A stretch of DNA of 64,000 nt from Chloroflexota bacterium. GTDB taxonomy: Bacteria; Chloroflexota; Anaerolineae; Promineifilales; Promineifilaceae. Positions 4,006 to 62,652 of this stretch are shown one piece after another (within the stretch, counting starts at the first letter, position 1; every line of letters starts with the position of its first letter). Under the pieces are notes generated by a model. That model was not told the DNA's origin. It did no database searches and was given only the letters and a program-made list of their open reading frames with translations. The position numbers were made by a program, and so were the translations under genes. The stretch is from positions 1 through 64,000 of the forward strand of contig JAKEFB010000042.1 in the NCBI GenBank assembly GCA_022616275.1, in the 5' to 3' direction.

Positions 4006-4088
4006 ACGCGAATGATGCGAATGAACGAATCACGCGAATAATTTATTAAAAATTGGCGTAATTCGCTTATTCGTGCCATTCGCGATTA
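4006..4088. repeat. Imperfect inverted repeat between convergent genes
   Basis: The left arm (4007-4030, words CGCGAATG, GCGAAT and CGAAT) is matched by the right arm (about 4061-4084, ATTCGC, ATTCG and CATTCGCG), with an AT-rich loop between. The arms pair imperfectly over about 24 positions. It starts eight bases after the jag stop and ends at the stop of the opposing gene. It probably acts as a two-way terminator, although neither side has a clean T-run. Confidence 0.6.
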
Positions 4089-5207
4089 GTGATCGCGTAT
4101 CAACCGGACCACCTGGCGGGCGGTCAGGCCGGCCCGTTGCCAGAGACGCCGGCCGTAACCCAAGGCCCGGCCGCCGTCTGTGGCGTAGTTCTGGCGAACG
4201 AATTCAGGCGGGGGAACGAGTAGCCGGCCGGCCAGGCGCAGCGTATCAGCCACAGAATCCACCAACAGCAATTCAATCAGGCGGGGCACAGGTCCCTGGC
4301 GCAGAGCTTTACGGCCGGGGGTCAGAGAATGCCAGCCGGCCGTTCGCCGGGCCAGCCAGCGCTGGGCTGGTGGGGTAGCCGGTTGGGGCAAGCCGGCCAG
4401 CTCGAAAAGCCGGGCGGCCACGTCCAGGATGTGGGCCAGGGCGCAGCGCGCCCCGGCCTCGCCAGCCAACTGGCGCAGCAGGTCTGGATCGGCAATGGCG
4501 CGAGCCAGTAGCGCGGCATCTATCATAAACGAGAGACGGTTGTAGAGGTTGTGGCGGGCGTGCAGCGCCGTGTAGACCAACGCGTCCTCGCCGGCCATCA
4601 GCCATGTTTCCAGGCCGGCTATCTGACCCGGCCGGGCCCTCTGCCAGATTTGCTCGACGTCCCAGCCCGGCCGGATCCGTCGCACCAGGTCGGTGTGGAT
4701 CTCAATCATGGTGTGATGCCGGTTGTGGACGTAGGGCGGCAGGTGGTGCCACTCCGGCCGGGGCACGTTGGGGTGAGGGTGATAGCCGCTTTCCTGGAGA
4801 ACAGTTAGGGCAGCCGGGCCGGCGCCGGGTGGCACCAGCAGGTCCAGGTCGTCGAAGTAACGCAGAGTGATACTGGGGTAAACGGTGTGGGCCAGGGCAA
4901 TGCCCTTGATCGGCATGACTCGAATGCCGGCCGCTGCCAGGCGCTGGTGCAGTTCCTGGAAAGCTTCGACCATCACCGCCGCCCGCATCCGCCGCCGCCG
5001 GGCCTCGTGCAGGATTTTGGCGGCCACGCCATCCGGTATTCCCTGGCGTGGCAGCGTGGCCTCGATCACGGGAACCAGGTTATGGCCGGCCGCCAGTTGA
5101 AAAAGCCGCTCCCAATCTATGCTGAGGGCCGGGATTTCAGTGAAGGGCCGGCCGGTGATCAGGCTGTGGATGGCCCGGAGTAGAAGATGCTCTTCGGCCG
5201 TAATCAT
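4086..5207 (-). CDS. Nucleotidyltransferase family protein (PF14907-like)
   Basis: Resembles the family of uncharacterised nucleotidyltransferases found near glycan and peptide biosynthesis genes. The 373-residue protein has a helical N-terminus. Around residues 100-135 lies the nucleotidyltransferase core with PIKGIALA followed by RYFDDLDLLVP, the Asp-x-Asp type metal site. A histidine-rich stretch (PEWHHLPPYVHNRHH) and IEIHTDL follow, then an alpha-helical C-terminal half. Its start overlaps the stop of the upstream gene by four bases, so the two are coupled. The substrate is unknown. Confidence 0.7.
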   Translation of the reverse strand: MITAEEHLLLRAIHSLITGRPFTEIPALSIDWERLFQLAAGHNLVPVIEATLPRQGIPDGVAAKILHEARRRRMRAAVMVEAFQELHQRLAAAGIRVMPIKGIALAHTVYPSITLRYFDDLDLLVPPGAGPAALTVLQESGYHPHPNVPRPEWHHLPPYVHNRHHTMIEIHTDLVRRIRPGWDVEQIWQRARPGQIAGLETWLMAGEDALVYTALHARHNLYNRLSFMIDAALLARAIADPDLLRQLAGEAGARCALAHILDVAARLFELAGLPQPATPPAQRWLARRTAGWHSLTPGRKALRQGPVPRLIELLLVDSVADTLRLAGRLLVPPPEFVRQNYATDGGRALGYGRRLWQRAGLTARQVVRLIRDH

Positions 5208-5779
5208 TCGGCCTGAAGGATGCTGCCGCAGTAAGCGCAGGCGGCGTTGTGGCTATCTATCCACTCGACTTCGTCGCTGCGAACCGGCGCAGCGCATTGG
5301 GGGCATTGGGCCGGCAGCCGGCCGGGTGGTTGCCCGGCCGGTTCCATAGGAGCGGCCACAGAGAGACGGCCCTGGTACTCCCTTTGCAGGGTATCGGCTT
5401 CAGCCGCCAGGTTGTTCCGGCGCAAGGCAGCCAGGAGGCGCTCCAGGGCCTGGCTGGCCTGGCCGGTCCGGCCGTGAGCCAGCATGGTATCCAGGGTGGC
5501 GCGGGCGTGGACTAATGTAGTCTGGCCATTGCCGGCCAGGCCAAAGCTTTCGGCGGCGCGCAGGTGTAACTGCACGGCCCGGCGGGGCATGTGATGGGCT
5601 TCGGCTTCCTGGGCCAGGCGAGCGAACAATGGCCCAGCTTCTTGATAGCGGCCGGCATTAAAAAGCTGGTTGGCTTCGTGCAGCACAGCCAGCAAGCCGC
5701 CACGGAGCGGGCGGGGCCGGCCGCCGAACAACGGTGGCCCCCAACGCATTGGACCCGGGCGGCGTGGTCGAAAACGCAC
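5204..5779 (-). CDS. TPR-like protein with C-terminal zinc ribbon
   Basis: A 191-residue soluble protein of unknown role. The start is a GTG at 5779 with GGAGGTAAT just upstream. The N-terminal 20 residues are Arg/Pro/Gly-rich. Residues 25-125 are helical with TPR-like pairs (LFNAGRYQEAGPLFARLA, AVQLHLRAAESFGLAG). The C-terminus has two Cys-x-x-Cys pairs, CPQC and CAYC, forming a zinc ribbon about 28 residues apart. It lies between a HemL-like gene (21 bases) and the nucleotidyltransferase (four-base overlap), so the three are probably co-transcribed. Confidence 0.6.
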   Translation of the reverse strand: MRFRPRRPGPMRWGPPLFGGRPRPLRGGLLAVLHEANQLFNAGRYQEAGPLFARLAQEAEAHHMPRRAVQLHLRAAESFGLAGNGQTTLVHARATLDTMLAHGRTGQASQALERLLAALRRNNLAAEADTLQREYQGRLSVAAPMEPAGQPPGRLPAQCPQCAAPVRSDEVEWIDSHNAACAYCGSILQAE

Positions 5780-5800
5780 AGGATTACCTCCGCTTCTCCA

Positions 5801-7117: not shown

Positions 7118-7139
7118 AGAACCTTCCTTGTTTTAAATA

Positions 7140-7202
7140 GTTGATGGTTGATGGTGGATAGTTGATGGTGGACTACCAACCACCAACTAACAACTATCAA
7201 CT
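7140..7202. repeat. Word-built inverted repeat downstream of serA
   Basis: The left half repeats GTTGATGG and GGATAGTTGATGG; the right half repeats the complement, CCACCAAC, CAACTA and CAACTATCAAC. The two halves can fold into an imperfect long hairpin. It ends seven bases from the stop of serA and also fills the leader of the HemL-like gene. It may serve as a terminator or 3'-end stabiliser for serA. Confidence 0.6.
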
Positions 7203-7209
7203 TGCCTTT

Positions 7210-8790
7210 TTACAGATTAACCAGCTTGACGCCAGTGACGGCCGGGATTTTTTCCAATGCCTGGAGCACGGGTGGGGGTAGCTCGCTATCCAGGTTAATG
7301 AAGGAGAGCGCCTCGCCGCCCGGCTCGTGACGGCCCATCCGCCACTCGCCAATATTGACGTCGTAAGCGGCCAGGATAGTGCCGACCTGGCCAATGACGC
7401 CGGGCACGTCCCGGTTTTGCATCACCAGGACCACCCCGTCTGGCTTGGCTTCCAGGTGGTAGTCGTCCACCTGGACAATGCGCGGCCCGCTGCCGAAAAT
7501 GGCCCCGGCCAGCAATCGTTGGCCTTCGTGCCAGTAAACCCGGCAGGAGATGAGGTTGGGATAGTCGGCCACGCTCATGCCCTTGGTCTGGGAGATGGAC
7601 ATGCCATCTTCCTCAGCCAGGATCGGGGCATTGATGTAATTGACGCTCTCGGCCAGGGATCTTTGCAGCAGGCCCTTGAGGAGGGCGGCTGCCACCGGCT
7701 TCACCAGCCGGTCTACTGTCTCTCCCCGCACTTCAATCTCAACCCGGCGGATGCGAGAGGCGGAGAGGGCCGATTGCAAGATACCTAACTTTTCGGCCAG
7801 TTCCATGTACGGCCGGGTCGTGGCGAAATCGGGGCCGGCGTGGAAGGGCATGTTGACGGTGTTGCGGAAATCGGTGCCACGCAAGGCGTCCATCACCTGG
7901 TCTACGATTTGGATAGCTACGTCCCGCTGGGCCTCGGCTGTGGTAGCCCCCAGGTGTGGCGTGTGGACGACGTTAGACAGCCCAATCAACGGATTGTCAG
8001 CCGGGGGCTCGTTGCTGTAAACGTCCACCCCGGCCGCCCGGACCTGGCCCCTTTGGAGCGCCTCGGCCAGGGCCTGTTCGTCAATGAGTTTGCCCCGGGC
8101 GGTGTTAATGAGAATGACACCGTCTTTCATCTGGCGGATGACCTCGGCGTTAATCATGTGCTCCGTTTCCGGCGTCAGCACCGTGTGCAAGGTGATGTAA
8201 TCGGCCTGGGCCAGCAGGTCGTCCAGGTCTACCAGGGTCACGCCCAGATCGTGGCCCACTTCCTCAGATACGAAAGGGTCGTAGGCCAGGACCTCCATGC
8301 CGAAAGCCTGGGCGCGCTGGGCCACCAGCCGGCCGATGCGGCCAAAGCCGACAATGCCCAACGTTTTGCGGTACAGTTGCCAGCCGGTAAAGTCGGAGCG
8401 GCGCCACTCGCCGGCTTTCAGCGAGGCGTGGGCGACGGCCGTGAAACGGCTGGCGGCCAGGATCAGGGCCATTGTCTGCTCGGCCGTGGCGATGGCGTTG
8501 GCCTGGGGAGTGTTCATGACGATGATACCCCGCAGCGTGGCCGCCTTGACGTCAATGTTGTCCACGCCGATGCCGGCCCGCCCGACGAGCTTCAAATTCT
8601 TGCCGGCCTTCAGGACGTCGGCGTCTACCTTTGTCCCGCTGCGAACGATCAGGGCATCATATTCAGGAATAATTTCCAGTAGTTCTTCTTTGGCCAGGTC
8701 GGTTTTTGAATCATAGGTGGCATCCTGGACCTGGTTCAGCCGTTCCAGGCCCACGTCACCCAATTTGTCTGCTACCAGAATGCGAAACAT
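7210..8790 (-). CDS. serA: D-3-phosphoglycerate dehydrogenase
   Basis: SerA oxidises 3-phosphoglycerate to 3-phosphohydroxypyruvate, the first step of serine synthesis. The 526-residue length is that of the long form with three domains. The NAD-binding motif is GFGRIGRLVAQRAQAFGMEV and the catalytic histidine lies in HTPHLGATT. An intervening domain occupies about residues 320-445, and a C-terminal ACT domain (from VPGVIGQVGTILAAYDVNIG) probably binds serine for feedback control. AAAAGGA precedes the ATG. The genes for the next two pathway steps lie directly upstream on the same strand. Confidence 0.95.
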   Translation of the reverse strand: MFRILVADKLGDVGLERLNQVQDATYDSKTDLAKEELLEIIPEYDALIVRSGTKVDADVLKAGKNLKLVGRAGIGVDNIDVKAATLRGIIVMNTPQANAIATAEQTMALILAASRFTAVAHASLKAGEWRRSDFTGWQLYRKTLGIVGFGRIGRLVAQRAQAFGMEVLAYDPFVSEEVGHDLGVTLVDLDDLLAQADYITLHTVLTPETEHMINAEVIRQMKDGVILINTARGKLIDEQALAEALQRGQVRAAGVDVYSNEPPADNPLIGLSNVVHTPHLGATTAEAQRDVAIQIVDQVMDALRGTDFRNTVNMPFHAGPDFATTRPYMELAEKLGILQSALSASRIRRVEIEVRGETVDRLVKPVAAALLKGLLQRSLAESVNYINAPILAEEDGMSISQTKGMSVADYPNLISCRVYWHEGQRLLAGAIFGSGPRIVQVDDYHLEAKPDGVVLVMQNRDVPGVIGQVGTILAAYDVNIGEWRMGRHEPGGEALSFINLDSELPPPVLQALEKIPAVTGVKLVNL

Positions 8791-8810
8791 GAAGTAGTAG
8801 TCCTTTTAAA

Positions 8811-8880
8811 AGAGGAGATTAGAGATTAGAGATTGGAGTGAGCAACCTTTGGTTGCCAATCTCTAATCTCCAATCTCTCC
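8811..8880. repeat. GAGATT-family hairpin between serine genes
   Basis: The left arm is made of GGAGATT and AGAGATT words and the right arm of AATCTCT and AATCTCC words. At the centre is a tight stem, GCAACC-TTT-GGTTGC at about 8840-8854. It abuts the stop codon of the aminotransferase (8881-8883) with no spacing. An element at 33432-33510 has the same arms and the same GCAACC/GGTTGC core with a different loop, so this is a dispersed repeat family. Confidence 0.75.
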
Positions 8881-9999
8881 TTACGCAGTTGTCAAATATT
8901 CGTCAATAGCTGCCAGTAGCTCTTCCATGTCACTGAACTGGAGATCGCCCATATGGGCGATGCGGAAGTTTTTGCCTTTGAGCTGGCCATAGCCGTTGGA
9001 GATAATCATCCCCTGGGAGCGCAGGTACTGGTTGAGGGCGCCAATGTCCAGTCCTCTGTCATTATTAATGCAAGTGACGGTCGAGGACTCGTACCCGGCG
9101 GCGGCAAAAAGGCTGAACCCCCGCTGCCCGGCCCAGGCAATAGTCATGTCGCGCATGGCCAGGTGACGGGCGAAGCGGGCTTCCATCCCTTCGGCCAGCA
9201 TGTCGTCCAACTGCTGCTCCAGGGCATACATCAGGGAAATAGCCGGTGTAGCGGGCGTCTGGTTGCGCAGAAGGTATTTTTCCAGTTCGACAAAGTCAAA
9301 GTAATAGCCCCGGTGAGGCACTGTTTTAGCCTTTTCCAGCGCCCGGTCAGACACGGCGCAAAAGGCCAGGCCGGGGGGTAGGGCAAACGCTTTCTGGCTG
9401 GAAGTCAGGGCTACGTCTAGATCCCAGGCGTCGAACTCCAGGCGCGCCCCGGACAGACCGCTCACCGAATCTATCAGGATCATGATGTGCTCACCATTGG
9501 GCAGGCTGCGGATAGCCTGGGCAATCTCCTGGATGGGACTGGTGACGCCGGTACTGGTCTCGTTGTGGACAACCGTCACGGCGTCAAAGCCGCCGGCGCT
9601 CAACCGTTCGGCCACCTGTTCCGGCCGGATGGGCTGGCCCCATTCTACGGATAGGACCTCGTTGTCTTTGCCGTTAGCTTCAGTTACCTGCCGCCAGCGG
9701 TCAGCAAAGGCGCCATTGACGCAGTTAAGCACTTTTTGGTTGCTGCAGTTGCGCACGGCCGCTTCTTGCAAGCCGGTACCGGAAGCTGCATTGACATAAA
9801 CGCGGCTCTGAGTCAGAAAAACCTGGCGAATTTTGCCCTGAATGCTGGCAAACAGATCGGCGCACTCGGGCATGCGGTGGCCGATCATCCACCTGCTTTG
9901 GGCCTCCAGGATTTCCCGCCGGACCTCAATGGGGCCGGGAATAAACAGCTTTATGTGAGGCGCTCCAGGCCTCGAGGAACTTGGTTTTGAGTTGTTCAT
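8881..9999 (-). CDS. Class V aminotransferase, probable phosphoserine aminotransferase role
   Basis: A 372-residue PLP enzyme of the alanine-glyoxylate/phosphoserine aminotransferase group. Seen are KLFIPGPIEV at the start of the fold, SGTGLQEAAVRN, VVHNETSTGV, the cofactor-binding aspartate in MILIDSVSGL and the Schiff-base lysine in TSSQKAFALPPGLAF. Position between serA and a SerB-like phosphatase argues that it makes phosphoserine from phosphohydroxypyruvate with glutamate; serine-glyoxylate or alanine-glyoxylate transamination remains possible. Its first ~25 codons overlap the 3' end of the phosphatase gene by 74 bases, so the true start may lie slightly later. Confidence 0.85.
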   Translation of the reverse strand: MNNSKPSSSRPGAPHIKLFIPGPIEVRREILEAQSRWMIGHRMPECADLFASIQGKIRQVFLTQSRVYVNAASGTGLQEAAVRNCSNQKVLNCVNGAFADRWRQVTEANGKDNEVLSVEWGQPIRPEQVAERLSAGGFDAVTVVHNETSTGVTSPIQEIAQAIRSLPNGEHIMILIDSVSGLSGARLEFDAWDLDVALTSSQKAFALPPGLAFCAVSDRALEKAKTVPHRGYYFDFVELEKYLLRNQTPATPAISLMYALEQQLDDMLAEGMEARFARHLAMRDMTIAWAGQRGFSLFAAAGYESSTVTCINNDRGLDIGALNQYLRSQGMIISNGYGQLKGKNFRIAHMGDLQFSDMEELLAAIDEYLTTA

Positions 10000-10789: not shown

Positions 10790-10866
10790 ACCTTTTGTCC
10801 CGAATTGCAGATGACAATGGCTTTAAGAGTGGCACTCAGAAATAGTGAATTGCCAGGGGATTGTAC

Positions 10867-10918
10867 GCAACCTCCCGGAGGTTCGCAACCTCCCGGAGGT
10901 TCGCAACCTCCCGGAGGC
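10867..10918. repeat. Three tandem palindromic repeats (CCTCCCGGAGG)
   Basis: Three copies of an 18-base unit (GCAACCTCCCGGAGGTTC; starts at 10867, 10885 and 10903, the last incomplete) stand head to tail. Each contains the palindrome AACCTCCCGGAGGTT. The run ends on the stop codon of the inositol-phosphatase-family gene at 10918-10920. The same palindrome and its inverted form return at 62596-62652. Confidence 0.85.
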
Positions 10919-11776: not shown

Positions 11777-11812
11777 AAAAAAACAGGCCAGAGGATTTTC
11801 CCCTGGCCCGTT
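11777..11812 (-). terminator. Intrinsic terminator of the ABC-transporter gene
   Basis: Read on the minus strand, GGGCCAGGGG and CTCTGGCC form a stem around an AAAATC loop, followed by a run of seven T. It lies 27 bases after the stop of the solute-binding protein gene and should end that transcript before the phosphatase gene. Confidence 0.8.
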
Positions 11813-11838
11813 TTTACTTTCAGGGGCTTCGGCCCAGG

Positions 11839-13618: not shown

Positions 13619-13675
13619 TGAGCGAGTCTGCGAGTTTGCGAGTATCTACTCACTTGCCACTTGCCTACTTGCCAC
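13619..13675. repeat. GCGAGT/CACTTGCC word repeat after permease gene
   Basis: One half is built of GCGAGT words (GAGCGAGTCTGCGAGTTTGCGAGTA), the other of CACTTGCC and TACTTGCC. The element ends one base before the stop of the permease gene at 13677. The word GCGAGTTTGCGAGTAT recurs exactly at about 20953 upstream of the second hsp20, and similar words lie at 57258-57299. Confidence 0.6.
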
Positions 13676-13676
13676 T

Positions 13677-14567
13677 TTAACCCTTCAGGCCGGTTGTGGC
13701 AATACCCTCCGTAAATTGCCGTTGAGTGAAGAAGTAGACGAGGATCAGCGGCAAAATGGTAATCATCGCCCCGGCCATCTGCAAATGGACCTGGGTACCG
13801 CCTTCGGTCACGAAGTTGAGCAGCCCATAGGAAATAGGGCGCCAATCCGGTGTGGTCGTGACCAGGATTGGCCAGGCCAGGGAGTTCCAGGTCCCGATGA
13901 AGCTGAACAGGATGACGGTGACGACGGCCGCACGAGAGAGAGGTAACACGACCTGGATCAGGTAGCGAATGTGACCGGCCCCGTCAATTTGAGCTGAGTC
14001 CCACAGCTCGCCGGGAATTTGCTGGAAGAACTGGCGTAAAATCAGGATGCTAAAGGCGCTGGCCATAAAGGGCACAGTCAGCGCCGGCCAGTTATTCACC
14101 CACTGGAAAGGCGTCACCCGGCCGAGCCAGGAAACGGTAATGAAATTCGGCACCCAAGTAATGGCCTCCGGCAGAATCAGAGTGGATAAGATCAGCGCAA
14201 ACAGGAACTCTTTAGCCGGAAACTCGATGCGGGCAAAGGCGTAAGCGGCCATGGTGCAAAAAACAAGCTGGCCCAGGACGGTAATGAAGGTAATTCTGAC
14301 ACTGTTCCAGAAGTACAGGCCAAACTCTGCCCCTTCCCAGGCGGCCAGGTAATTCCCCCACTGGGGAATTACCGGCAGAATAGCGCTGCCCCCGGCTTCC
14401 GTTTGAGTCATAAGGGAAATATTGATCGTCAGAATGAACGGGATCAGGGCAATCATAGCGCCAAAGAGCAAGACCAGGTACATAACCACCCGGCCGGCGT
14501 CTATCCGGCGAGCCTGGGGATGGCGTTCCGGTTTTTGGGAGGCAGCAGCCATGCTAACGTTAGCCAT
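13677..14567 (-). CDS. Carbohydrate ABC transporter permease (MalG-like)
   Basis: One of two membrane subunits of the importer, 296 residues. The start at 14567 ([10 protein letters not shown]) has AGAGGG upstream; an open frame reaching 14687 lies inside the neighbouring gene and is rejected. Six membrane segments are evident. The EAA loop reads [28 protein letters not shown], the contact site for the ATPase. The start overlaps the end of the other permease by eight bases. No ATPase gene lies nearby, so a shared MsmX-type ATPase elsewhere is inferred. Confidence 0.9.
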
Positions 14568-16290: not shown

Positions 16291-16408
16291 GGGCTACCTC
16301 AGGCAAGCAGGAGATCTGGTTTTTGGGGAGCAGCAACAGCCTCTCTATATATCACCAGTAGAAAGATTATATCATGCCTGGGGAGAGGGGCAAAAGGGGG
16401 GAGGGGGG

Positions 16409-16480
16409 AGAATGGAGAATGGAGATTAGAGATTGGAGATTAGAGATTATCAATCTCCTATCTCCAATCTCTAATCTCTA
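16409..16480. repeat. GAGATT-family hairpin at the end of surE
   Basis: GGAGAAT, AGAGATT and GGAGATT words on the left and AATCTCC, AATCTCT and TATCTCC words on the right form an imperfect hairpin of over 20 pairs. The stop codon of surE (TAG, 16478-16480) lies inside the right arm. It belongs with the elements at 8811, 27834, 31527 and 33432. Confidence 0.7.
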
Positions 16481-20166: not shown

Positions 20167-20190
20167 CAGGGCAGTTCCCTACCAGCACCG

Positions 20191-20233
20191 CCCGCCAGGA
20201 AAGGATTGCAAGCCGTTTCCTGGCGGGCTTTTT
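20191..20233 (+). terminator. Intrinsic terminator of the cupredoxin gene
   Basis: A perfect 12-base stem, CCCGCCAGGAAA (20191-20202) with TTTCCTGGCGGG (20216-20227), is followed by C and five T. It lies 25 bases after the stop codon at 20166 and separates the gene from the hsp20 cluster. Confidence 0.92.
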
Positions 20234-20878: not shown

Positions 20879-20944
20879 GAGTGGCGACCAAAGGTCGCTA
20901 AAGTGGCGACCAAAGGTCGCTAAAGTGGCGACCAAAGGTCGCTA
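20879..20944 (+). repeat. Three tandem 22-base hairpin units
   Basis: Three nearly identical copies (AAGTGGCGACCAAAGGTCGCTA; 20879-20900, 20901-20922, 20923-20944) each hold a hairpin, GCGACC-AAA-GGTCGC. They start 11 bases after the first hsp20 stop and fill most of the gap before the second hsp20. They could shape mRNA processing between the chaperone genes. Confidence 0.88.
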
Positions 20945-20985
20945 CAAGTATGCGAGTTTGCGAGTATGCAAGTAGGAGGTACAGA

Positions 20986-21396: not shown

Positions 21397-21470
21397 GTGT
21401 CACGTGTTTCCGTGTCAAGTGTCATGTAACTTTCTCACTTGACACCTGACACTTGACACCTGACACCTGA
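21397..21470. repeat. GTGTCA-word inverted repeat between hsp20 genes
   Basis: The left side carries GTGTCACGTG, GTGTCAAGTGTCATG; the right side carries CACTTGACAC, CTGACACTTGACAC and CACCTGACACCTG. The halves can pair imperfectly. It begins three bases after the second hsp20 stop and ends next to the third gene's ribosome-binding site at 21475-21480. Confidence 0.65.
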
Positions 21471-21487: not shown

Positions 21488-21994
21488 ATGAATATCAATG
21501 ATTTGGTACCCTGGAGAGGAAATCGCGGCAGCAATTTAGCCGTTCGCCAGGAAGAGGATTATCCTTATTCCCTGCAGCGTGAAGTGAACCGTCTGTTTGA
21601 CGATTTCTTCAGTGGTTTTGACTTGGCTCCGTCTCCGTGGTGGGGCGAGCGCACCACTTTCCTGCCCCGGGTCAACGTGACGGAACGGGAAAAGGAAATC
21701 GAAGTGACGGCCGAATTGCCTGGCCTGAGCCAGGAAGACGTTGATATCTCCCTGGCCCGTGATACTCTGACCATCAAAGGTGAGAAGAAGCAGGAAGAGG
21801 AGCACAAAGGCGAGAATTATTACCGCATGGAACGCTCCTACGGCCAGTTCAGCCGGACCATCCCCTTGCCCGAAGGCGTGGTGGACCCGAATAAGGTCGA
21901 GGCCATGTTCAAGAACGGCGTTCTGACCATTACCCTGCCTAAACGCAAGGAAGCCCAGCAGGTTTCCAAGCGCATCACTGTAAAGGCAGGCTAA
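21488..21994 (+). CDS. Small heat-shock protein Hsp20, third of three
   Basis: 168 residues, start at 21488 with GGAGGT at 21475-21480. N-terminal LVPWRG and FDDFFSGFD are typical of bacterial class-A small heat-shock proteins. The crystallin domain has TAELPGLSQEDVDISLARD, GENYYRMERSYGQFSRTIPLP and FKNGVLTITLPK, and the C-terminal KRITVKAG fits the I-x-V motif. The last seven codons, including the stop, form the first unit of a 21-base tandem repeat. Confidence 0.95.
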   Translation: MNINDLVPWRGNRGSNLAVRQEEDYPYSLQREVNRLFDDFFSGFDLAPSPWWGERTTFLPRVNVTEREKEIEVTAELPGLSQEDVDISLARDTLTIKGEKKQEEEHKGENYYRMERSYGQFSRTIPLPEGVVDPNKVEAMFKNGVLTITLPKRKEAQQVSKRITVKAG

Positions 21995-22064
21995 TTGCCT
22001 GTAAAGGCAGGCTAATTGCCTGTAAAAGCAGGCTAATTGCCTGTGAAAGCAGGCTAAATGCCTG
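21981..22064 (+). repeat. Four 21-base tandem repeats starting inside hsp20
   Basis: Four copies of a 21-base unit (TAAAGGCAGGCTAATTGCCTG-like; starts 21981, 22002, 22023, 22044) follow each other with few changes. The first copy includes the last codons and the stop of the third hsp20. Each holds the small stem AGGCA/TGCCT and a TAA. This looks like tandem duplication of a gene's 3' end. Confidence 0.9.
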
Positions 22065-22079
22065 TTGACGATTTTCCGG

Positions 22080-26938: not shown

Positions 26939-27001
26939 AGGTAATTAAGTAATTGGTCATGAGTAATTGGTAATTACCAAATTACCTAATTACCCAATTA
27001 C
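26939..27001. repeat. GTAATT-word inverted repeat between rfb genes
   Basis: The left half repeats GTAATT and AATTGG words, the right half AATTACC and CCAATTAC. They meet in a tight centre GGTAATTACC. The element ends one base from the stop of the cytidylyltransferase gene (27003). It is AT-rich in an otherwise GC-rich region. Confidence 0.7.
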
Positions 27002-27791: not shown

Positions 27792-27833
27792 AGAAACTCG
27801 TCTAGTAATAGCTTTGGGCCTGACCGGAGAGTA

Positions 27834-27854
27834 GAGATTGGAGATTGGAGATTA
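27834..27854. repeat. Single-arm GAGATTGG repeat at the mtnA stop
   Basis: Three adjacent GAGATT(GG) words without a facing arm. The stop codon of mtnA (27852-27854) lies in the last word. It appears to be a partial member of the GAGATT family. Confidence 0.55.
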
Positions 27855-30415: not shown

Positions 30416-30477
30416 AAGTGCTAGGCACTTGTCCATTTTGAGCAGTGATTAATATCGGTTGAAGTGCCTGGCATTTG
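30416..30477. repeat. Two AAGTGC..GGCA(C/T)TT hairpins between yvcK and gap
   Basis: AAGTGCTAGGCACTT at 30416-30430 is a perfect short hairpin, and AAGTGCCTGGCATTTG at 30462-30477 is a diverged second copy. Both are followed by T-G-T-t/c. They fill the 117-base gap between yvcK and gap. Confidence 0.7.
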
Positions 30478-30508
30478 TTCTAGAGATAAGGAAAAGGAGA
30501 ATTAGGTC

Positions 30509-31526: not shown

Positions 31527-31590
31527 AGAGAGATTAGAGATTGGTTATTGTCCAATCTCCAATCTCTAATCTCTAATCTCCAATCTCCCC
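31527..31590. repeat. GAGATT-family hairpin after gap
   Basis: AGAGATTAGAGATTGG on the left is matched by a longer right arm of AATCTCC and AATCTCT words. It starts one base after the gap stop and runs to two bases before the next start codon. It therefore replaces any ribosome-binding site for that gene. Confidence 0.75.
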
Positions 31591-32550: not shown

Positions 32551-33448
32551 AACGAGAAGAGCCATTCTGGCCGGCTGGTTGGGCTGGCTACTCCTGGCCG
32601 GCGTGATGGTAGTGGCGCTGCTGCCGGCCGGGCCCAGCCAAAATGTGGTTCGCGCTGGGGGCGCTGCCGTGGAGTTGGTTCCGGACAACAACGGCGCCGG
32701 CCAGCCGGGGGACACAGTCATTTACGTCCACACCATTACCAACCTGGGAGACAGCACCGACACGTTTACCATGACCGTCGGCTCCAGCCGGGGATGGCAG
32801 GTAGCCGTTTCACCTCCGCAGGTCACTTTGGGCGCTAACCAGGACGAAACGATCCTGGTAACGGTCGTCGTTCACCCGTCAGCTCAGGTTGGCGATACGG
32901 ACATCACCACCGTCACAGCCACGTCCGGCAACGTTCCCTCGGTTTCTGATTCGGCCGTGGACGCCACTGTCGTGCCGTCCCCTGTTTTTTTGCCTTTTAT
33001 CAGCCACAACGTGGGTGTTGACCCGCCACCCCCCAACTGCCAGTTAAACCCACCGCCCCCAGCCAATCCGGCCGGGGTGGACCTGGTGGTGACCAATCTG
33101 ACGGTAGCGCCCAACCCGCCGCCGGCCGGCCAGCCGGCAATGGTCCAGGTGACGCTAAAGAATCAGGGCACAGCCAGCGTGCTGCCCGGCAACAATTTCT
33201 TGCTGGATTTTTACGTAGACCCCAACCCGGAGCCGCCCCAGCCCCAACAGCCGGGTGTTTTGTATTGGGGCATCCAGGGGAGCGATTTGCCGGCCGGGGC
33301 CAGCCGGACGTACAGCGCCCAATACGTGTTTGTCGCCGGGTCTCACCACCTCTACGCCCGAGCTGACACCGACAACAACGTCGTCGAGGCGATTGAGAAC
33401 AATAATGTTTATGGCTGCCTGGGTGTAACAACAGAGATTGGAGATTAG
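32537..33448 (+). CDS. Secreted CARDB-domain protein (mini version of the giant protein's end)
   Basis: A 303-residue exported protein. A signal segment spans about residues 10-35. One repeat of the NEW3-like kind follows (VIYVHTITNLGDSTDTF, SRGWQVAVSPPQVTL), then VFLPFISHN. A proline-rich hinge leads to a CARDB-type domain (VDLVVTNLTVAPNPPPAGQP, VTLKNQG, NNFLLDFYVDPNPEPPQP, YGCLGV). The same modules in the same order end the 4250-residue protein 13 kb downstream. The last residues TEIGD and the stop come from a GAGATT repeat. Surface attachment or adhesion is inferred. Confidence 0.8.
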   Translation: MARFRTRRAILAGWLGWLLLAGVMVVALLPAGPSQNVVRAGGAAVELVPDNNGAGQPGDTVIYVHTITNLGDSTDTFTMTVGSSRGWQVAVSPPQVTLGANQDETILVTVVVHPSAQVGDTDITTVTATSGNVPSVSDSAVDATVVPSPVFLPFISHNVGVDPPPPNCQLNPPPPANPAGVDLVVTNLTVAPNPPPAGQPAMVQVTLKNQGTASVLPGNNFLLDFYVDPNPEPPQPQQPGVLYWGIQGSDLPAGASRTYSAQYVFVAGSHHLYARADTDNNVVEAIENNNVYGCLGVTTEIGD

Positions 33449-33510
33449 AGATTGGAGATGAGAGATTGTGAGCAACCCCTGGTTGCCAATCTCTCATCTC
33501 CAATCTTTCC
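33432..33510. repeat. GAGATT-family hairpin ending the CARDB gene
   Basis: Arms of GAGATT/AATCTC words surround the core GCAACC-CCT-GGTTGC, the same design as the element at 8811-8880. The stop codon and last five codons of the CARDB gene lie within the left arm. The rest of the 33449-33771 gap holds a promoter at 33561-33589 and an untranslated leader with no recognisable gene. Confidence 0.8.
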
Positions 33511-34321: not shown

Positions 34322-34362
34322 CAGCCGTCCTGTTGCCACCATTTTCGGCAATAGGGCGGCTG
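34322..34362 (+). promoter_or_regulatory. Long hairpin at the 5' end of the giant mRNA
   Basis: CAGCCGTCCTGTTGCC (34322-34337) pairs with GGCAATAGGGCGGCTG (34347-34362): 14 Watson-Crick pairs and two G-U pairs around a nine-base loop. No T-run follows, so it is not a typical terminator. It would sit within a few bases of the mRNA 5' end, where such stems are known to slow 5'-dependent decay. A weak terminator of the pilin transcript is the alternative. Confidence 0.55.
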
Positions 34363-34422
34363 TTGTTGGCATTCCAGACGCGCGCCAGTTTCAATTCAAG
34401 TAGTTGTAGAGGTTGTAGTGCC

Positions 34423-46400: not shown

Positions 46401-47175
46401 TTCGGCTCCCAGCGGGACGGTGGACATTACCCTGGTGACGGCGACCTCCGGCGATGATCCCGGCGTCACTGATTCGGCCACTGACACGACCACGGTCATA
46501 GGCGCCGGTGGGCTGCCGGAACTGTTCCTGCCGATCATATTCCAGGCCTCAGCCGCGCCGCCCCCGCCGCCCACACCGACGCCGACCCCCACGCCGACCA
46601 ACACCCCGCCACCGCCAGCCTGCACGCTGAACGTGCCACCGCCGGCCAACCCGCCGGGCATAGACTTGGTCATCACCAATATGACCATTGTCCCCAACCC
46701 GCCGGGCGCCGGCCAGCCGGCGACGATCTTTGTAACCATCAAGAACCAGGGCCAGACCGACGTACCTTACGGCAATAACTTCTACCTGGACTTCTACGAC
46801 AACCCCAACCCCGAGCCACCGCAGCCGCTGCAAATCGGCAACGTCGCCTGGGGCGTTCAGGGCGTCTGGCTGAATGCCGGGGCCAGCGTAGTCTTCCAAA
46901 GTCCCTACGTTTTCGGTAGCGGGCAACACCGGTTGTGGGCCCAGGTGGACACAGACGGTACGGTGGTGGAAGCGAACGAAGGCAACAACCTCTATGGTTG
47001 CCTGGCGCTGGCGGTGACTGGGGCGGGCGACCTCGCAGTGACGCCGCAGCCACCCTCCCAGCCGGCCGACCTGCCGCGCAGCACGCCGACCAGCGCACCG
47101 CTGGCCGATACCCCGGTGGCCAACGAACCACCGGCGACGCCTGTCCCCGGCGGGACCCCCGTTCCTGGCCGTTAA
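34423..47175 (+). CDS. Giant secreted beta-helix/NEW3-repeat/CARDB surface protein
   Basis: A 4250-residue exported protein. Start ATG at 34423 follows AGAGGTTG; a signal segment covers about residues 28-60 and ends in AQAAAP. Eight large beta-helix blocks follow, rich in GGGIYN and NNTA words. They end in DxGADE-type anchors (about residues 483, 731, 1281, 1653, 1989, 2348, 2805 and 3369; the third reads GWDE), the choice-of-anchor Q pattern. Two NEW3-like repeats lie at about 745-960, two at 2815-3030 and six at 3380-4025, each with a TYTHTxTNTG core. Then come LFLPIIF, a Pro/Thr linker and a CARDB domain at about 4065-4190. It is likely a cell-surface stalk or adhesin. No enzyme motif, LPxTG or SLH domain was seen. 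Confidence 0.85.
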   Translation: MKKSNGSTLRQVNGPAYSSLHLERLGRLFVAPVGGLVLLAWVLLLMNFQLSPAQAAAPETVGATPEAARSGATAIAGEIPLAGQTLYVTADATGVACTPAEPCPLQVAANQALDGDEIRVAGGLYDELLSIDGFTQTLRLETSITIRGGYTSTNWLAEPDPVANETILDGLGQARVVYIVGPIQPTITGFAIRNGEATEGAGVYHPDANGGAVIEANQIYDNVATGGTARGGGVFLGGPGTVTNNDIYNNSAAGRGGGVFVENLNTGGDTAVIQANKIHGNSAGTVGSNALAGGLGIADGNVTVDANEIYQNTADFAAGILVDLDGNVTLQNNVVYLNTATFNNSSAGAGGGLLTRGTVNIWHNTFAKNSATNAQGGGIYLFGGTAVISNTIVAHNTAASNSGIHELTPGIGSGGFNNIFNNTSNATGLVNTIITDPLFVSLAGNDFHLTAASLNINAGDPSVPVNTDFDNQVRPFDGGIDVGADEFYDPANTCYARFNNGPVFDTIDEAMALVTSPSDVVKVAGRCTGTGSQVVLLTQTFTLQGGYTTTNWVERGFGPTIIDAEGVSGRRGIHVTAGSPTIDSLRVTGGNLASGNGAGIYAAAGSPTIQNAVLYDNSAPSSNGALGVGSGASATLRFLTIADNSADGVRFEGSGSLHNSIVYNNTGVAIGGGSGHTFNLVNVNPLFANAPAGDYHITAASPAMAIADPATTLAEDFEGDSRPSGFLFDVGADEANDYPAIDFRPALIARDVNRGFTYTFTHVLTNAGTLTDSYNLAGNNSAGWSISFPGSISNLPPGQSTEVPVIVQVPAGASPQQVATTTVTATSTANTNVYAVVEDVATVLQLPSIAFTPSYSDTVLPGTVLTYVHTLTNTGDYTDTFVIAVASDPFNWVELLPTDPQSVTLPAGGVDMVQVRVEVPPFASSGFANEALIRATSVFSPVVTAVVTDRVTAKATVGTRYVSPGGVDLNNNCTQTSFPCATVARGVSQASFEDQVRVATGTYLEININVNDTISVTGGWVNDFTEQQGPETTIIDANQQNRIFIIAPGSNIQPFLGNFTLRDGLNASVGGAMIVGQNAQPQLSRIIFDNNQGSDGGALYLQPGANVLLEKSRFVGNTATRDGGAVFVQGATLSAENNLFDSNVAQRNGGALYTNGGQVTVVHNTIHENAAATRGGGLYNNGATVAIANTILVSNTATTGGGAVYQASGATTLDYDDVWNNSVPETNVPVGANSISADPDFADALFRLQASSPAVDTADPASTVGEDFEDDPRPVDQGFDMGWDERAGCLAKRGEIIYGSIQAAIEAGGIETLILVSGYCRGVHPIVVNSQTISQTVDLDESLTIQGGWDSTFATRGFPTYVDPEGRGRAFYVSGSATPVLEDLILLNGDAAGLGGGPAGEDAGGAIYNADSDLTLVDMNVFTSTAGVGGGVYNDTGLLTVTYAIDSQSGSISRTVVASNTAVLGAGLFNNAGQMIVQSAHIRDNQATTGGALANESGALYAENSLVWDNSATGNGGAVYGKGQVTLLHLTFYENTAGGSGEAVYQASGNLVARSNIFQGDVASLGAAIHVAGGSTDIDYNYYYRHTTPAVTGAAEGPNSINSTTPPGLINPAGGDFHLFDSAPAVDQGDLNTPVLLDFEEDLRPSNQSSDMGADEVANCYARVRSTGIIYGNVQSAVDVAPVGDWVDVAGKCTGVHTIDAGGLGVISQTVHLTKNVNLQGGWTIDFSSQTDETILDALGMGRVIYAGPAITSTIDNFNVTGGNGNAPGLNGNGGAIYLDNAQASLQRNEIYTNTASNGAGIYISSGSAAVEAGNRIFGNTATNGGAIYLAGTATVVNNFIYLNTATTNGGAVYQASGNSSFWHNDLVQNTANNSGGGLFVAGGSPSIRSNIVMDNDANVGGGGAHGSGGAPSLGYNDFYLNTPANFGGTIAGGGSGNLSVDPLFTDLPGFDLTITVTSPVIDKGDPALSLEVDFEDDIRPSQQGFDVGADEIGGCYAMVVSSGEIYGSPQLAIDVALNNDTILIDGTCYGVNGQLVSATTVSQTVFLNKNLTIDGDWDSGFLPAGTPAIFDALGLGRTVYVDTAVTVVVKDLELRNGDANATGFTGNGGAVYNTGVLSLTEVLAHDSTAINGGGVYNAGGQLTIEYSRIATNTVTGGGGGVYHNAGSLLLHKSDIYNNDAANGAGIYLNSSAGPNPAVQNNFIYDNQATANGGGLYNANTTAAIWHNTFVNNGATGSGGGIYTTGGSSVVIRNDIVDSNSGTGIHASGAAPNTGYNNVIGNSGGNYGGTAVAGAGAISAPPDYVDPANNDFHLEDDTAGVDVGDPASPVTDDYDDDVRPSNAGFDMGADEVNSCLIRVVDPSGPGTRIFGVLQFAIDYAEANNFTLVQIARGECKGVRQDPTSLTWQVGYVRESLQFVGSLRRLDFSDPNDFETLGTLTTIINAENNGRVLHIASGASPTFLHLVFVNGDAAPAGGGTNGGAIYSAGDPTFVESFISQSSASNGGGYYGAASSHVSFRGGEEFDAIPPDLDGRAPDDTILGDAAIVGFSIAALVKEDETGQIIDITFKVYTGNVALNNGGGIYNAGDMYVSGVSFFLNSAGNQGGGLYNNGPDFEFVNVLFWRNQATNQGGGIYNSGSNALFINGVFQLNESLAAEGGAIYNANSIAIYHNTIRDNTAQGNGGGIFNSSTSFVLNSTIVYSNASTLGTGGGLNSVANPGVLLSYNNFYNNLPNDSTVGIGSNSISAQPQFEPLSAWRLLGSSPDIDRADPALVGSPLFIDFDIELDIRPDGGITNTIAYTSDIGADEYPKNFGCSITPDNFSLADPGETVTYTHTVANSGNYTDIVTITLTSTSQGWATLVGGPQVVALGANESVEVEVEVVVPFGVLAGVQDVSVVQCQSTAIPDQTDTATDITEVAELRGVIIIPDYITTAVPGQVLTFTHTIINIGNISDTFRYTPNSGPAYANAVIVNPLTDTVFLVPSQSITIDLQVTIFDDAMATGTATPGAVVRSVTEPTIFDAALDTILIGYTSGTRYVAAENSADTTNCTNFQNPCATIQHAVDQAVDGDAILVALGTYTDSQTSTVGQHNVHVYKSLSIDGGYDAAEDYATSEPITNAVILDGEGARRVIYVDAGLVVTISSLFIQNGVAPTTAALPEPGLVPVARVLLQPNAGGGIYNDGADLTLNGVWLLNNTAEFGGGLYHLTNTLHLNSVVLAYNGNVPGTNGEGGGVYAAGGDVLVENGTFAYNDVIVPANLVATGSGGGLYQANGSLVITNTIFLSNTASNYGAFFGPPATSNDYNLTFGNSSPETNVPLGSNSFSADPLIADGFFHLAAGSPAIDEGTDLVTLGFDIDRQPRRQGPRVDIGADEYLQVPDFVFVPVSQTATISSGVVYTYSHVITNTGDFTDSYSLAMNNQTTGGTGWGYFLTPTLITDLPVEASVQVTFVITGGSPGYVDTTVITATSATDPLLTRSVVDTTIISQTAGVDIEPSLSGSGLPGEVITYNHILTNTGDGPDTYTLTVTSAVPPGWNITITPSNTGVVLPGATLPFTVAVEIPATAVSGTVHTAQITAISGANPVISDTLTDTTTVEVVYGLTLTPDNVASVPPGTAVVYTHTLASQSNLSDTVNLTVTSLLGWPVSLSDSVVNLPPFGSQIISVTVTVPVTASIGISDTAIVTATSSISPSLVATATNTTFVVSQTYGVDIEPDRSQNTPPSTVIVYTHTVTNTGNGQDIITLAAASSNGWGATITPTQVTLSPQQSTPVTVTLSVPAVPLGTLDTMVVTATSTLTSVFDTVTDTTLVTDTVPGAGVLLEPDLSATGLVSDFVVYNHVITNTGDSADTFDLVAQSSQAWPVTVNPTNISLAAGQSAPVVMQIFIPPGTLSGTVDVTVITATSTVNPAVFDTATDTTTVTTEPVAGVSLVPNNSSTAAPGDTVVYNHTLTNLGNNSDTFTLAGNSSQSWSVTVLPSVITLLAGENRGISVTVVVPPSAPSGTVDITLVTATSGDDPGVTDSATDTTTVIGAGGLPELFLPIIFQASAAPPPPPTPTPTPTPTNTPPPPACTLNVPPPANPPGIDLVITNMTIVPNPPGAGQPATIFVTIKNQGQTDVPYGNNFYLDFYDNPNPEPPQPLQIGNVAWGVQGVWLNAGASVVFQSPYVFGSGQHRLWAQVDTDGTVVEANEGNNLYGCLALAVTGAGDLAVTPQPPSQPADLPRSTPTSAPLADTPVANEPPATPVPGGTPVPGR

Positions 47176-47180: not shown

Positions 47181-47225
47181 CTCCGGGCGAGGTAACCAGA
47201 TTTGGTTGCCTCGCCCGGAGTTTTT
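47181..47225 (+). terminator. Intrinsic terminator of the giant protein gene
   Basis: CTCCGGGCGAGG (47181-47192) pairs perfectly with CCTCGCCCGGAG (47209-47220), with extra AACCA/TGGTT pairing inside, followed by five T. It lies six bases after the stop and isolates the 12.7-kb gene from the STAS gene. Confidence 0.95.
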
Positions 47226-56068: not shown

Positions 56069-56076
56069 ACGGCTAT

Positions 56077-56658: not shown

Positions 56659-56690
56659 TTTCTTTCTCTCCATCATTTTTCTGGCCAGAG

Positions 56691-57242: not shown

Positions 57243-57257
57243 GATACACCTTCAAAA

Positions 57258-57299
57258 GTAATGTGAGTTTGCGAGCTTGCCAAATCACTTGCCACTCTT
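57258..57299. repeat. Word repeat at the end of the FAD monooxygenase gene
   Basis: GTGAGTTTGCGAGCTTGCC and CACTTGCCACTC words match the vocabulary of the elements at 13619-13675 and 20950-20975. The last five codons and the stop of the FAD enzyme (57285-57287) are made from the repeat. Confidence 0.55.
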
Positions 57300-58580: not shown

Positions 58581-58616
58581 CGTCTTTCCTCGGCATGATT
58601 CCCAATGAATAGGTGG

Positions 58617-58635
58617 CGCGATTTGGCAAATCGCG
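58617..58635. repeat. Perfect palindrome CGCGATTTG-G-CAAATCGCG
   Basis: A 9-base perfect inverted repeat with a one-base centre lies about 36 bases before the FAD monooxygenase start and 45 bases after the preceding gene. The form fits a dimeric repressor site or a very tight hairpin. No regulator gene is adjacent. Confidence 0.5.
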
Positions 58636-58679
58636 TTACGGCGGTGCAGCCCGAAAACGCCAATGCCCAGGAGATAATT

Positions 58680-59315: not shown

Positions 59316-59342
59316 CGTTCATACCTCCAACTGTTGTTGCTT

Positions 59343-59645: not shown

Positions 59646-59655
59646 GGTTACGCCT

Positions 59656-61025: not shown

Positions 61026-62554
61026 AAGGGCCATCTCCTGGTGATGGAAATATTTGGGCCGGTGCCGTTGAGGGCTATCGGCAGATACAACCGGCCAGAC
61101 GCACAGCCACCGGCTTCGTACGCGCCCAGGTCCGGGGTCTGGTCGCGCGGGCAGCCGGCCAGGTCACCGGCCGGGGCGTTGGCGGATATACCGGCGTTAA
61201 TGGCCGGGCTGCCGGCGGCCAGGTGAAAGTCACCCCCGGCCGGGTTAACGAATAAGGGGTCGGCGTAACGGTTGGCTGGCTGGGGCCACCTGCCGTTGTT
61301 GATGTCGGCGTCGCTGAAGCACTGGCCATTGTAGGGGGCAAAGTCAGCGCAAATGACTGCATCGGGCCGGTAAGGGTTAAAAAAGAGGGCATTGCTGACC
61401 GTCTCCAGCACCACCTCCGGCCCAAAGTAGAGCAGGGTGCCCTCGTTGGCCGGGTTGTCGTTGAAGAAGATGGTGTTCTGGAAACGGACCGGCGTTGGAC
61501 CGCTGCTACTGGTATCGCCGGCGACCACCAGGTAAGCGGTGGCGGCCATGTTAGCCACGGTGACGTTGGTGACGGTGTAGCTGCCCCCGGCGGCCAGGAC
61601 CAGGTTGGCGTCGGCCGTGGCCGCATAGGCCAGGGCGTTGACCAGGGTGCTGTTCTGGCCCCACAGCTTGATGTTGTTGCGGGTGTGATGGGCGACCACC
61701 CGCGACAGCAACACGTTGTCGGCCTTGACGTCGAAGCCATCGCCCACCCCGCCGCTGGCCAGCGACCGCTCGATGACTACCCCGTTGCCCCGCTCGATGG
61801 CCAGAGAATCGGTGGCCGTGTCCCCCTGCGTGCCGTTATCTATGGCTTGCAGATCGGCGATGTGCAGGTTGGTGCAGCCGGGGTCGTCCTCGTTGCCGGG
61901 TAGGATGGGGGTGCAGTCAAAACCGCCCTCGTTGTTCTGCAACTGCACGTTGTGTACCTGGCTGCCGTCGCTGTTGGACAGGCGGATGCCCTCGCCGCCG
62001 TTGTTGCGGATCACCAGGTTGGCCAGGGCCAGGCGGTGGTTGACGCTCCAGGCAACGATGCCAAAGTCGCTGTAATTTTGAATGGTAAAGCCGCTAATGG
62101 TGACGTCCGAGACGAAAGGATCAGGTTCGCTAAAGGTGGTCTGAAAGGCGGCGTAGAGCGAGCCCTGGCCGTCCAGGACGGCGGCCTCGCCCGGCCGGGC
62201 GGCAAAAGTGATGGGGTTGCCCGGCTGGCCGGAATGGCTGAGGGTGACGGCCTCGTGATAGGTCCCGGCCCGGACGTACACGGTGTCGCCAGGTTCCAGC
62301 GTATCGGCCGCGTGTTGGATGGTGCGCCAGGGCTGGTCCAGCGCGCCGGGGTTGGCGTCGTCGCCATTGATAGCCACGTAGTAGGTGTTGCCCGGGGGAA
62401 GGGTGAGGACAGCCGTGGGCGCCAGGCCGGCCGGGACCATAACGGTCGTCCCTCCCGAGGCCGTGGTGGGGGCAGCCGGAGTAGCCTGGGACCGGCAGGC
62501 GGTCACAAGAACCATCAGGCTGAGGAAGTAAATCAAACGCCATTTGAGTAGCAT
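61022..62554 (-). CDS. Secreted right-handed beta-helix lipoprotein
   Basis: A 510-residue exported protein. A signal segment ends in the lipobox LVTAC about 20 residues in. A DUF1565-like start (YYVAINGDDANPGALDQPWRTIQHA, GDTVYVRAGTY) leads into a right-handed parallel beta-helix with ISGFTIQN, LVIRNNGGEGIRLSN and NVTVANMA turns. The C-terminus has GSPAINAGI, DLGAYEAG and LYLPIAL. Similar folds bind or cut polysaccharides; no catalytic residues are assigned. ATG at 62554 with AGGCGAAAAG is preferred over 62575. Confidence 0.82.
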   Translation of the reverse strand: MLLKWRLIYFLSLMVLVTACRSQATPAAPTTASGGTTVMVPAGLAPTAVLTLPPGNTYYVAINGDDANPGALDQPWRTIQHAADTLEPGDTVYVRAGTYHEAVTLSHSGQPGNPITFAARPGEAAVLDGQGSLYAAFQTTFSEPDPFVSDVTISGFTIQNYSDFGIVAWSVNHRLALANLVIRNNGGEGIRLSNSDGSQVHNVQLQNNEGGFDCTPILPGNEDDPGCTNLHIADLQAIDNGTQGDTATDSLAIERGNGVVIERSLASGGVGDGFDVKADNVLLSRVVAHHTRNNIKLWGQNSTLVNALAYAATADANLVLAAGGSYTVTNVTVANMAATAYLVVAGDTSSSGPTPVRFQNTIFFNDNPANEGTLLYFGPEVVLETVSNALFFNPYRPDAVICADFAPYNGQCFSDADINNGRWPQPANRYADPLFVNPAGGDFHLAAGSPAINAGISANAPAGDLAGCPRDQTPDLGAYEAGGCASGRLYLPIALNGTGPNISITRRWPL

Positions 62555-62595
62555 CTTTTCGCCTATATTAGACATTATCGGAATTAGCGTTTGAT

Positions 62596-62652
62596 AACCT
62601 CCCGGAGGTTTGACATTAGAAGTTGGCAGTAGACATTAACCTCCGGGAGGTT
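62596..62652. repeat. Pair of CCTCCCGGAGG-type palindromes
   Basis: AACCTCCCGGAGGTT at 62596-62610 and AACCTCCGGGAGGTT at 62638-62652 flank a short spacer containing GACATTA twice. They lie between two secreted-protein genes, 15 bases after the stop of the FG-GAP protein gene. The palindrome is the same as in the tandem repeats at 10867-10918. Confidence 0.8.

Follow-up and report, generated by a model that had tools for sequence, protein, structure and literature searches.

Here we describe a class of short repeats, the word hairpins, found in a 64,000-nucleotide window of contig C209 (JAKEFB010000042.1) from a Chloroflexota bacterium of the family Promineifilaceae, whose genome comprises 8.5 Mb in 309 contigs. 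These elements, each an inverted pair of short tandem arrays of one word, were confirmed as a real feature of this genome and of its sisters. They are dispersed, lie close to stop codons, turn over between sister genomes and keep a constant polarity within each family, and at two empty sites the sister's element stands directly after the stop codon. We estimate, with a probability of about 0.55, that the word-built elements constitute a class of dispersed extragenic palindromes with fast turnover, resembling the repetitive extragenic palindromes (REPs).

Sixteen repeats of the window (spans set by hand) had been picked in a preliminary description, and therefore a sample of 864 kb and 633 genes, consisting of the window and 14 other contig pieces, was taken as the less biased test; its contigs were drawn from matches of the 14-mer GGAGATTAGAGATT, so each holds this 14-mer somewhere. 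Genes were called with our own simple codon-usage caller, reliable for stops and less so for starts, giving 43 genes in the window. A word hairpin was defined as a hairpin with self-similar arms, a label that was falsely given to 4 of 318 cases with shuffled arms. Three sister genomes, A (L001), F (L029) and H (L037), which display 84-98% identity within long matches and have syntenic stretches in common, were used for comparison, together with GAGATT clusters from 104 GTDB loci, whose gene caller was trained on mixed genomes.

Dispersal of the word families

The words of the different repeats had been regarded as unrelated, a view that must be abandoned, since the same word families recur across the genome. 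The 14-mer GGAGATTAGAGATT is present in 212 copies, against 2 for its reversed control; within the family, 18 of 35 relatives carry it (three as one copy), compared with 0 of 24 genomes outside. Among the matches listed, at least 80 GTDB loci share a 21-mer, 76 of them titled Chloroflexota, mostly Anaerolineae metagenome-assembled genomes (MAGs). Some of the family's genomes display this feature prominently.

One subfamily, marked by the centre TGAGCAACNNNTGGTTGCC beside AATCTC, consists of dispersed copies: 28 were found with up to 2 mismatches, against 0 in the reversed control, four words per side being the commonest state (12 and 13 of 28). Twenty-two of them lie in same-strand gaps, 4 in convergent and 0 in divergent gaps; a called gene and a contig edge account for 1 each. 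The preference for stops is most evident in this subfamily: of the intergenic copies, 25/26 are within 22 nt of a stop (21/22 in same-strand gaps; in convergent gaps 4/4 are within 3 nt or run over the stop), whereas 14% of random intergenic points would fall this close. In relation to the genes, 12 are sense and 10 antisense, and inspection of the 28 flanks by eye, with no statistic, revealed no constant tetranucleotide foot such as GTAG or CGTC.

Carriage by phages was considered and rejected, the 21-mer being present in 2 IMG/VR stretches. It also occurs as a single-arm array in contigs of Lewinellaceae, Mucilaginibacter and Tychonema (L033, L045 and L062), where no partner arm was seen by eye. 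In sister F, ~890 bp (2813-3706) with a NUDIX hydrolase-like open reading frame (ORF; by eye) lie between inverted GAGATT arrays and are missing from a close relative (L072); genes may be gained by recombination at such inverted arrays.

Architecture of the arms

The elements measure mostly ~45-85 bp, and each arm is a tandem array of a 7- or 8-nt word with a fixed core and a variable letter, namely GAGATTR, GTAATTNN, GTGTCAN, GCGAGTNT, GCGAATNN, GTTATTG, GTTGATG and others. For 176 hairpins in four genomes, the best period was 7 in 98, 8 in 41, 14 in 25, 6 in 5, 9 in 4 and another value in 3. The period-6 hairpins (TTAGAG / GAGCTA words; C86 at 63649, 39660 and 43758, C17 at 66089 and 87796) are unlike those of period 7 or 8: in these 5 cases, 3 lie in divergent gaps, and the distance to a stop is 364 nt for one and 22 nt for another.

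Each family has a fixed order of the two arms, with 87 inverted pairs one way and 0 the other in our genome and the three sisters (orthologues in A, H and F counted apart). In the 141 GAGATT clusters of the GTDB loci, GAGATT-then-AATCTC was found in 85, the reverse in 4, mixed order in 2 and a single arm in 50. A universal rule placing the G-rich arm first was rejected: it describes our genome (58/59) and F (22/23) but fails in A (24 G-first, 8 C-first, 2 equal) and H (32, 11 and 4, respectively), and thus only the constancy within families stands.

Neither arm of an element is a copy of the other. In GAGATTR, the variable letter agrees at 73/133 arm positions, against 55.3% for re-paired arms, and arm lengths are uncorrelated (-0.16, 85 elements). 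A fold-back origin of the arms was accordingly rejected, as letter matching did not rise above the random level for GAGATT (p 0.13 in the best register), GTAATT (p 0.68) or GTGTCA (p 0.39). The GTAATC family behaved differently (11/11 letters matched, p 0.002, 8 hairpins), perhaps on account of its G and C subfamilies, and seven other words had too few hairpins for this comparison. We also considered a possible cassette that would close all reading frames: periods of 7, 8 or 14 account for 164/176 hairpins, and the inward arms close on average 1.37 frames in our genome against 1.67 for permuted words, and 2.17, 2.01 and 2.50 against 1.66, 1.59 and 1.83 in the sisters, that is, fewer in the former and more in the latter.

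Placement at stop codons

Tandem and inverted repeats were confirmed in the sequence at all sixteen positions of the window, and all sixteen elements overlap a stop or lie within 25 nt of one, compared with 3.8/16 for random intergenic midpoints; 17 of the 43 stops of the window carry an element of the listed types. The shared placement noticed in the preliminary description therefore stands, and it holds beyond the window as well. The 864-kb sample yielded seventy word hairpins. Same-strand gaps hold 46 of them, convergent gaps 6 and divergent gaps 7, and the other 11 are within called genes; 59/70 are thus outside called genes, in keeping with the high-copy, extragenic nature of REPs. Those between same-strand genes (46) have median distances of 3 nt from the stop and 18.5 nt from the following start. 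In gaps up to 800 bp, 35/44 word hairpins are within 15 nt of a stop, compared with 26/63 other hairpins, and 13/44 extend over the stop codon.

In the first 464 kb of the sample, gaps of 40-600 bp carry a hairpin in 53/132 same-strand, 12/24 convergent and 11/34 divergent cases, against 0.3, 0 and 0.7 gaps, respectively, in dinucleotide-shuffled versions (mean of 3), and in same-strand gaps of this stretch the stop is closer than the start for 42/54 hairpins, against an expected 26.9. Among the 141 GTDB clusters, 71 are in same-strand gaps, 35 in called genes, 19 at an edge, 9 in divergent and 7 in convergent gaps; of the 71, 50 begin within 24 nt of a stop and 45 end within 24 nt of the next start.

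The role of available space was assessed in roomy gaps, defined by a residual gap of at least 50 nt, by counting hairpins within 15 nt of the stop. Word hairpins near the stop amounted to 5/10 in our genome (1.4 expected), 4/5 in H (1.3), 6/13 in A (2.0) and 4/5 in F (1.4), where H, A and F are close relatives and their results are not independent.

Turnover between sister genomes

From 173 junctions of A, 97 were readable in H, 79 in F and 70 in both. Pairwise comparisons yielded like hairpins in 77 cases, unlike hairpins in 54, a hairpin in one genome only in 46 and in neither in 69; sisters displayed unlike hairpins at the same junction in 35/106 compared, 25 of which included a word hairpin. 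Orthologous junctions thus often keep the position of a hairpin while its words change. At A_C4 21023 the three sisters carry three unlike hairpins at one shared stop, at A_C4 34081 the word is GTAATT in A and F and GAGATT in H, and our genome and L008 differ in words at one common junction. Arrays also grow and shrink between sisters, for instance at A_C5 37395 and A_C25 5386.

Two clean empty sites were found. The first, at A_C25 25656, is unoccupied in F; in A it holds a 35-bp GTAATT hairpin directly after TAG and in H, as read by eye, a GTGTCA hairpin following TAA. At the second, L001 carries a word hairpin (67 bp net, by eye) directly after TAG, where L037 reads TAG-A-ATG.

Where a neighbour's hairpin is absent, another hairpin stands in its place in 2/14, 36/49, 42/54 and 28/37 cases for gaps of <20, 20-59, 60-119 and >=120 nt, respectively, and where the neighbour has none, a hairpin is present in 3/94, 13/33, 19/34 and 11/23, these counts being of ordered genome pairs and not independent. 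Such replacement at the level of junctions fits a need for a hairpin and repeated insertion at tolerant sites alike. At three further junctions (A_C4 18878, A_C25 23283 and A_C1 18001; G060-G062), the non-word palindrome ACCTGACAGGTTT-AAACCTGTCAGGT is present in some sisters and a word-type hairpin in others.

REP-type palindromes and RAYT-like genes

Six matches to Y1 transposases were identified in our genome. At one locus (L243, contig C308), AACCTCCCGGAGGTT palindromes at 780-852 and 2057-2113 flank a gene similar to REP-associated tyrosine transposases (RAYTs) and a downstream ORF, one palindrome 68 nt before the PF01797 match and the other beyond the next ORF, an arrangement characteristic of REPs and their RAYT. 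On this basis, the window elements at 10866 and 62594, which bear the same palindrome, are most simply taken as probable REPs of a RAYT. Two more RAYT-like genes (L244 and L245, contig C22) lie between AGGTGACWGTCACCT / AGGTGACAGTCACCT palindromes, near copies of which, AGGTGACTGTCACTT, are located at gene ends in the 864-kb sample (C10 6487 and C116 15103).

GAGATT arrays were found near none of the six Y1 loci of our genome, one of which (L242) has single words, one each way, and mobilisation of the GAGATT family by a RAYT was rejected, as the number of Y1 matches is uncorrelated with that of the words. At another of the six, a 372-aa ORF with a weak Y1-like match (L246, 1080-2198, contig C182) lies between other word hairpins, and by eye it does not resemble a transposase; at least 12 relatives have open frames of 376-395 aa that match Y1 weakly.

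Origin of the word hairpins

The reading that we prefer, a REP-like class of dispersed palindromes, would operate as follows. Copies from a limited set of word families would arrive in short gaps between genes and would settle mostly in the free strip just 3' of the stop, sometimes supplying the stop itself and leaving the next ribosome-binding site clear. They would gain and lose words fast and be replaced by unlike hairpins at the same junctions. New copies would presumably be made from other copies by some copying agent, and the placement would result from insertion or retention at stops together with loss elsewhere.

Several findings weigh against this reading. Y1 counts show no relation to word copy number (Spearman 0.17, p 0.33, 36 genomes), two genomes with 23 and 70 copies (G009 and G023) have no Y1 match, and a search limited to Y1 transposases identified no mobilising enzyme for the word hairpins. 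Clean empty sites number only two, with no target-site duplication seen by eye at either, most differences being replacements with unclear edges. With nearness set at 12 nt, twenty pair rows (16 junctions) that differ in a hairpin include 8 near a stop and 4 near a start, those with good flanks (7) include 1 and 3, respectively, and 21 hairpin inserts among 319 indels were of mixed placement (~8 near a stop, 3 near a start). Word hairpins are few in the gaps of four relatives (G015, 1 in 44 kb; G025, 8 in 100 kb; G014, 4 in 62 kb; G032, 2 in 85 kb), and 35/141 GTDB clusters are inside genes as delimited by the mixed-genome caller. As for placement, it is mostly gap-filling: with an 18-nt ribosome-binding strip reserved, 39/46 word hairpins lie within 25 nt of the stop against 36.1 expected (p 0.04), so the filling of the space between stop and ribosome-binding site accounts for much of the closeness. 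Non-word hairpins also prefer the stop in roomy gaps (14/46 in our genome, 7/26 in H, 7/20 in A and 4/9 in F, with 6.9, 2.9, 2.2 and 1.0 expected, respectively), and the number of word hairpins per gap is nearly equal in divergent (7/79) and same-strand gaps (46/463), the divergent shortage appearing only per residual kb (0.38 vs 1.07). The interpretation given in the preliminary description is upheld in part: the elements are closer to stops than expected by chance, roomy gaps included, but this closeness arises mostly from lack of room.

Selection for a hairpin at the 3' end of the mRNA, whereby any hairpin after the stop would serve for mRNA protection or translation control while words are swapped and the position is kept, had also been put forward, and we regard it as rather unlikely. 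It draws on the position often kept at sister junctions, on the replacement of a missing hairpin more often than hairpins occur where the neighbour has none (gap length controlled), on the excess of word hairpins over other hairpins within 15 nt of a stop, and on the parallel of a 15-nt rule for Escherichia coli REPs, as cited in PMC12306157. But repeated insertion at tolerant sites would produce such replacement just as well, and no signal was detected at the level of base pairs. G.U mismatches on the sense strand do not exceed A.C (139 vs 150 pooled; 57 vs 44 in our genome, 20 vs 40 in H), nor do they between orthologues (51 vs 54), in a test of limited power, since other hairpins used as a control are also weak (34 vs 27 in our genome). 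Double changes in word hairpins, each pair counted once, are no more numerous than in slid controls (6 vs 2-6, with low power at 19 comparisons), and an apparent set of compensatory changes (14 vs 2.4 expected) was rejected when single counting left 3, all at one junction; non-word hairpins display some excess (15 vs 2-11), which speaks for this explanation. The chance-level agreement of the variable letters between arms and the lack of an orientation preference in the core-marked subfamily are likewise contrary to this explanation. Rfam covariance models gave no match in the window at the gathering score. Termination of the intrinsic (Rho-independent) kind by unusual stems, a very improbable explanation, would account for hairpins at gene ends, convergent gaps included; however, at least 5 T within 8 nt after the stem were found in 4/46 word hairpins of our genome and in 0/28, 1/34 and 2/20 in the other genomes tested, A+T makes up 60% of the first arms against ~40% of the genome, and most elements separate same-strand genes, the next start following after ~18 nt. 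With rare U-tracts, no G.U bias and no compensatory excess, neither intrinsic termination, which we rejected, nor pair-by-pair selection on RNA is supported.

Two further explanations concern how the elements are made. Production in place, in which slippage would grow a word array after the stop and fold-back copying would add the second arm, with no dispersal, agrees with the change of word number between sisters and with the frequency of single-arm arrays. It is nonetheless improbable: identical words occur hundreds of times and across genera, variable letters are not shared between arms in three families (GTAATC excepted), arm order is constant within families, albeit with the 4 reversed against 85 in GTDB loci, and core-bearing copies have a common non-word centre. 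Very improbable, in our judgement, is the writing of words during repair of a break or nick near a gene end, where a templated enzyme would add one short word to both 3' ends before joining. Such a process would yield head-to-head arrays, hence arms with a shared word, no shared variable letter and unrelated lengths, and it would also lead to a constant arm order within families and to different words at the same stop in sisters; the conserved apical core of one subfamily, however, points to copying of whole elements.

Comparison with known systems

Proximity to stops is already known for palindromic repeats in general. E. coli has REPs located 1-20 nt from the ORF end, with effects on translation within 15 nt (PMC12306157), and the terminus of GTAG REPs often provides a TAG stop (PMC3733652). 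Word hairpins resemble the system of REPs, bacterial interspersed mosaic elements (BIMEs) and RAYTs in being short, high-copy, extragenic palindromes, many of them within 15-20 nt of a stop, and the two AACCTCCCGGAGGTT elements of the window look like ordinary members of that system. They differ from it in being built from tandem 7-8-nt words with a variable letter, in many families, with no constant tetranucleotide foot by eye and with a copy number not tied to Y1 number. With intrinsic terminators they share a stem-loop at the gene end, but their U-tracts are rare, their A+T-rich stems are made of repeated words, and the stem runs over the stop in 13/44.

The short tandemly repeated repetitive (STRR) sequences of filamentous cyanobacteria are tandem degenerate heptanucleotides between genes, forming direct arrays that are not known to have an inverted partner. 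The TAACTGA heptamer of Beggiatoaceae, also reported from cyanobacteria and Bacteroidetes, forms dispersed short intergenic 7-nt arrays that are nearly all direct, of one word and mostly just upstream of starts in the main genome (PMC4679880). Both TAACTGA repeats and word hairpins are thus dispersed short intergenic arrays of a short word, but the latter are inverted pairs, of many words and mostly just downstream of stops. We know of no accepted cause for the abundance of heptameric repeats. Such repeats are described as abundant in bacteria (PMC4692102). In the present case, a Chloroflexota group known from MAGs carries heptameric words as numerous inverted pairs at the ends of genes, and since sisters differ in words at the same stop codons, their origin is directly testable by strain comparison. 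Moreover, a hairpin position that is often kept with no detected base-pair selection calls for caution against untested RNA-structure readings of such elements. A search by title and start of abstract, with most subscription papers outside its coverage, found no published description of word-built hairpins in Chloroflexota.

Elements of the window

The sixteen repeats, described at the outset as one class, proved to be a mixture of nine with arms of tandem 7-8-nt words, two REP-like elements of RAYT type, and five other tandem palindromes or partial arrays. Among the hairpins built from words, that of GCGAATNA words (4004..4087, stem score 20) occupies the whole of a convergent gap, directly adjoining the minus-strand gene's stop (distance 0), that of GTTGATG / GTTGGTA words (7137..7202) is separated by 8 nt from the stop of gene 7210-8790 (minus strand), that of GTGTCAN words (21397..21470) is 4 nt past the stop at 21393, and that of GTAATTNN words (26940..27001) is 2 nt from the minus-strand stop at 27003. 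GAGATTR hairpins are located at 8810..8882, with the conserved apical core TGAGCAACCTTTGGTTGCC and overlapping the stop at 8881 (minus strand); at 16407..16478, overlapping the stop at 16478 (minus strand); at 31529..31588, 4 nt past the stop at 31525; and at 33433..33506, with the apical core TGAGCAACCCCTGGTTGCC and the stop at 33448 inside the element. A GAGATTR array at 27826..27853 has one arm and no partner, and overlaps the minus-strand stop at 27852.

The GCGAGTNT / ACTTGC word pair (13619..13677), a hairpin by eye that falls under the detector score, overlaps the minus-strand stop at 13677, and a short word remnant, GCGAGCTTGCC / CACTTGCCACT (57258..57296, hand-set span), overlaps the minus-strand stop at 57285. 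The REP-type elements, which are not built from words in the case of the AACCTCCCGGAGGTT palindrome repeated three times in tandem (10866..10917, 1 nt from the stop at 10918), include the AACCTCCCGGAGGTT / AACCTCCGGGAGGTT pair at 62594..62654, 14 nt from the minus-strand stop at 62668. The remaining repeats are a 22-nt unit in three copies, each a short palindrome (GCGACC AAA GGTCGC; 20880..20949, 13 nt past the stop at 20867), a 21-nt unit in four copies with the stop at 21994 inside it (21978..22065), and a pair of imperfect palindromes of AGTGCNAGGCACTT type (30416..30486, hand-set span), exactly 25 nt past the stop at 30391.

Three further hairpins of the window, unlisted in the preliminary description and not built from words, lie at 11779-11815, 20190-20228 and 47181-47220, and are 23, 23 and 5 nt past a stop, respectively. 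The window also contains one ORF of 4280 aa, extending over 13 kb (34333-47175).

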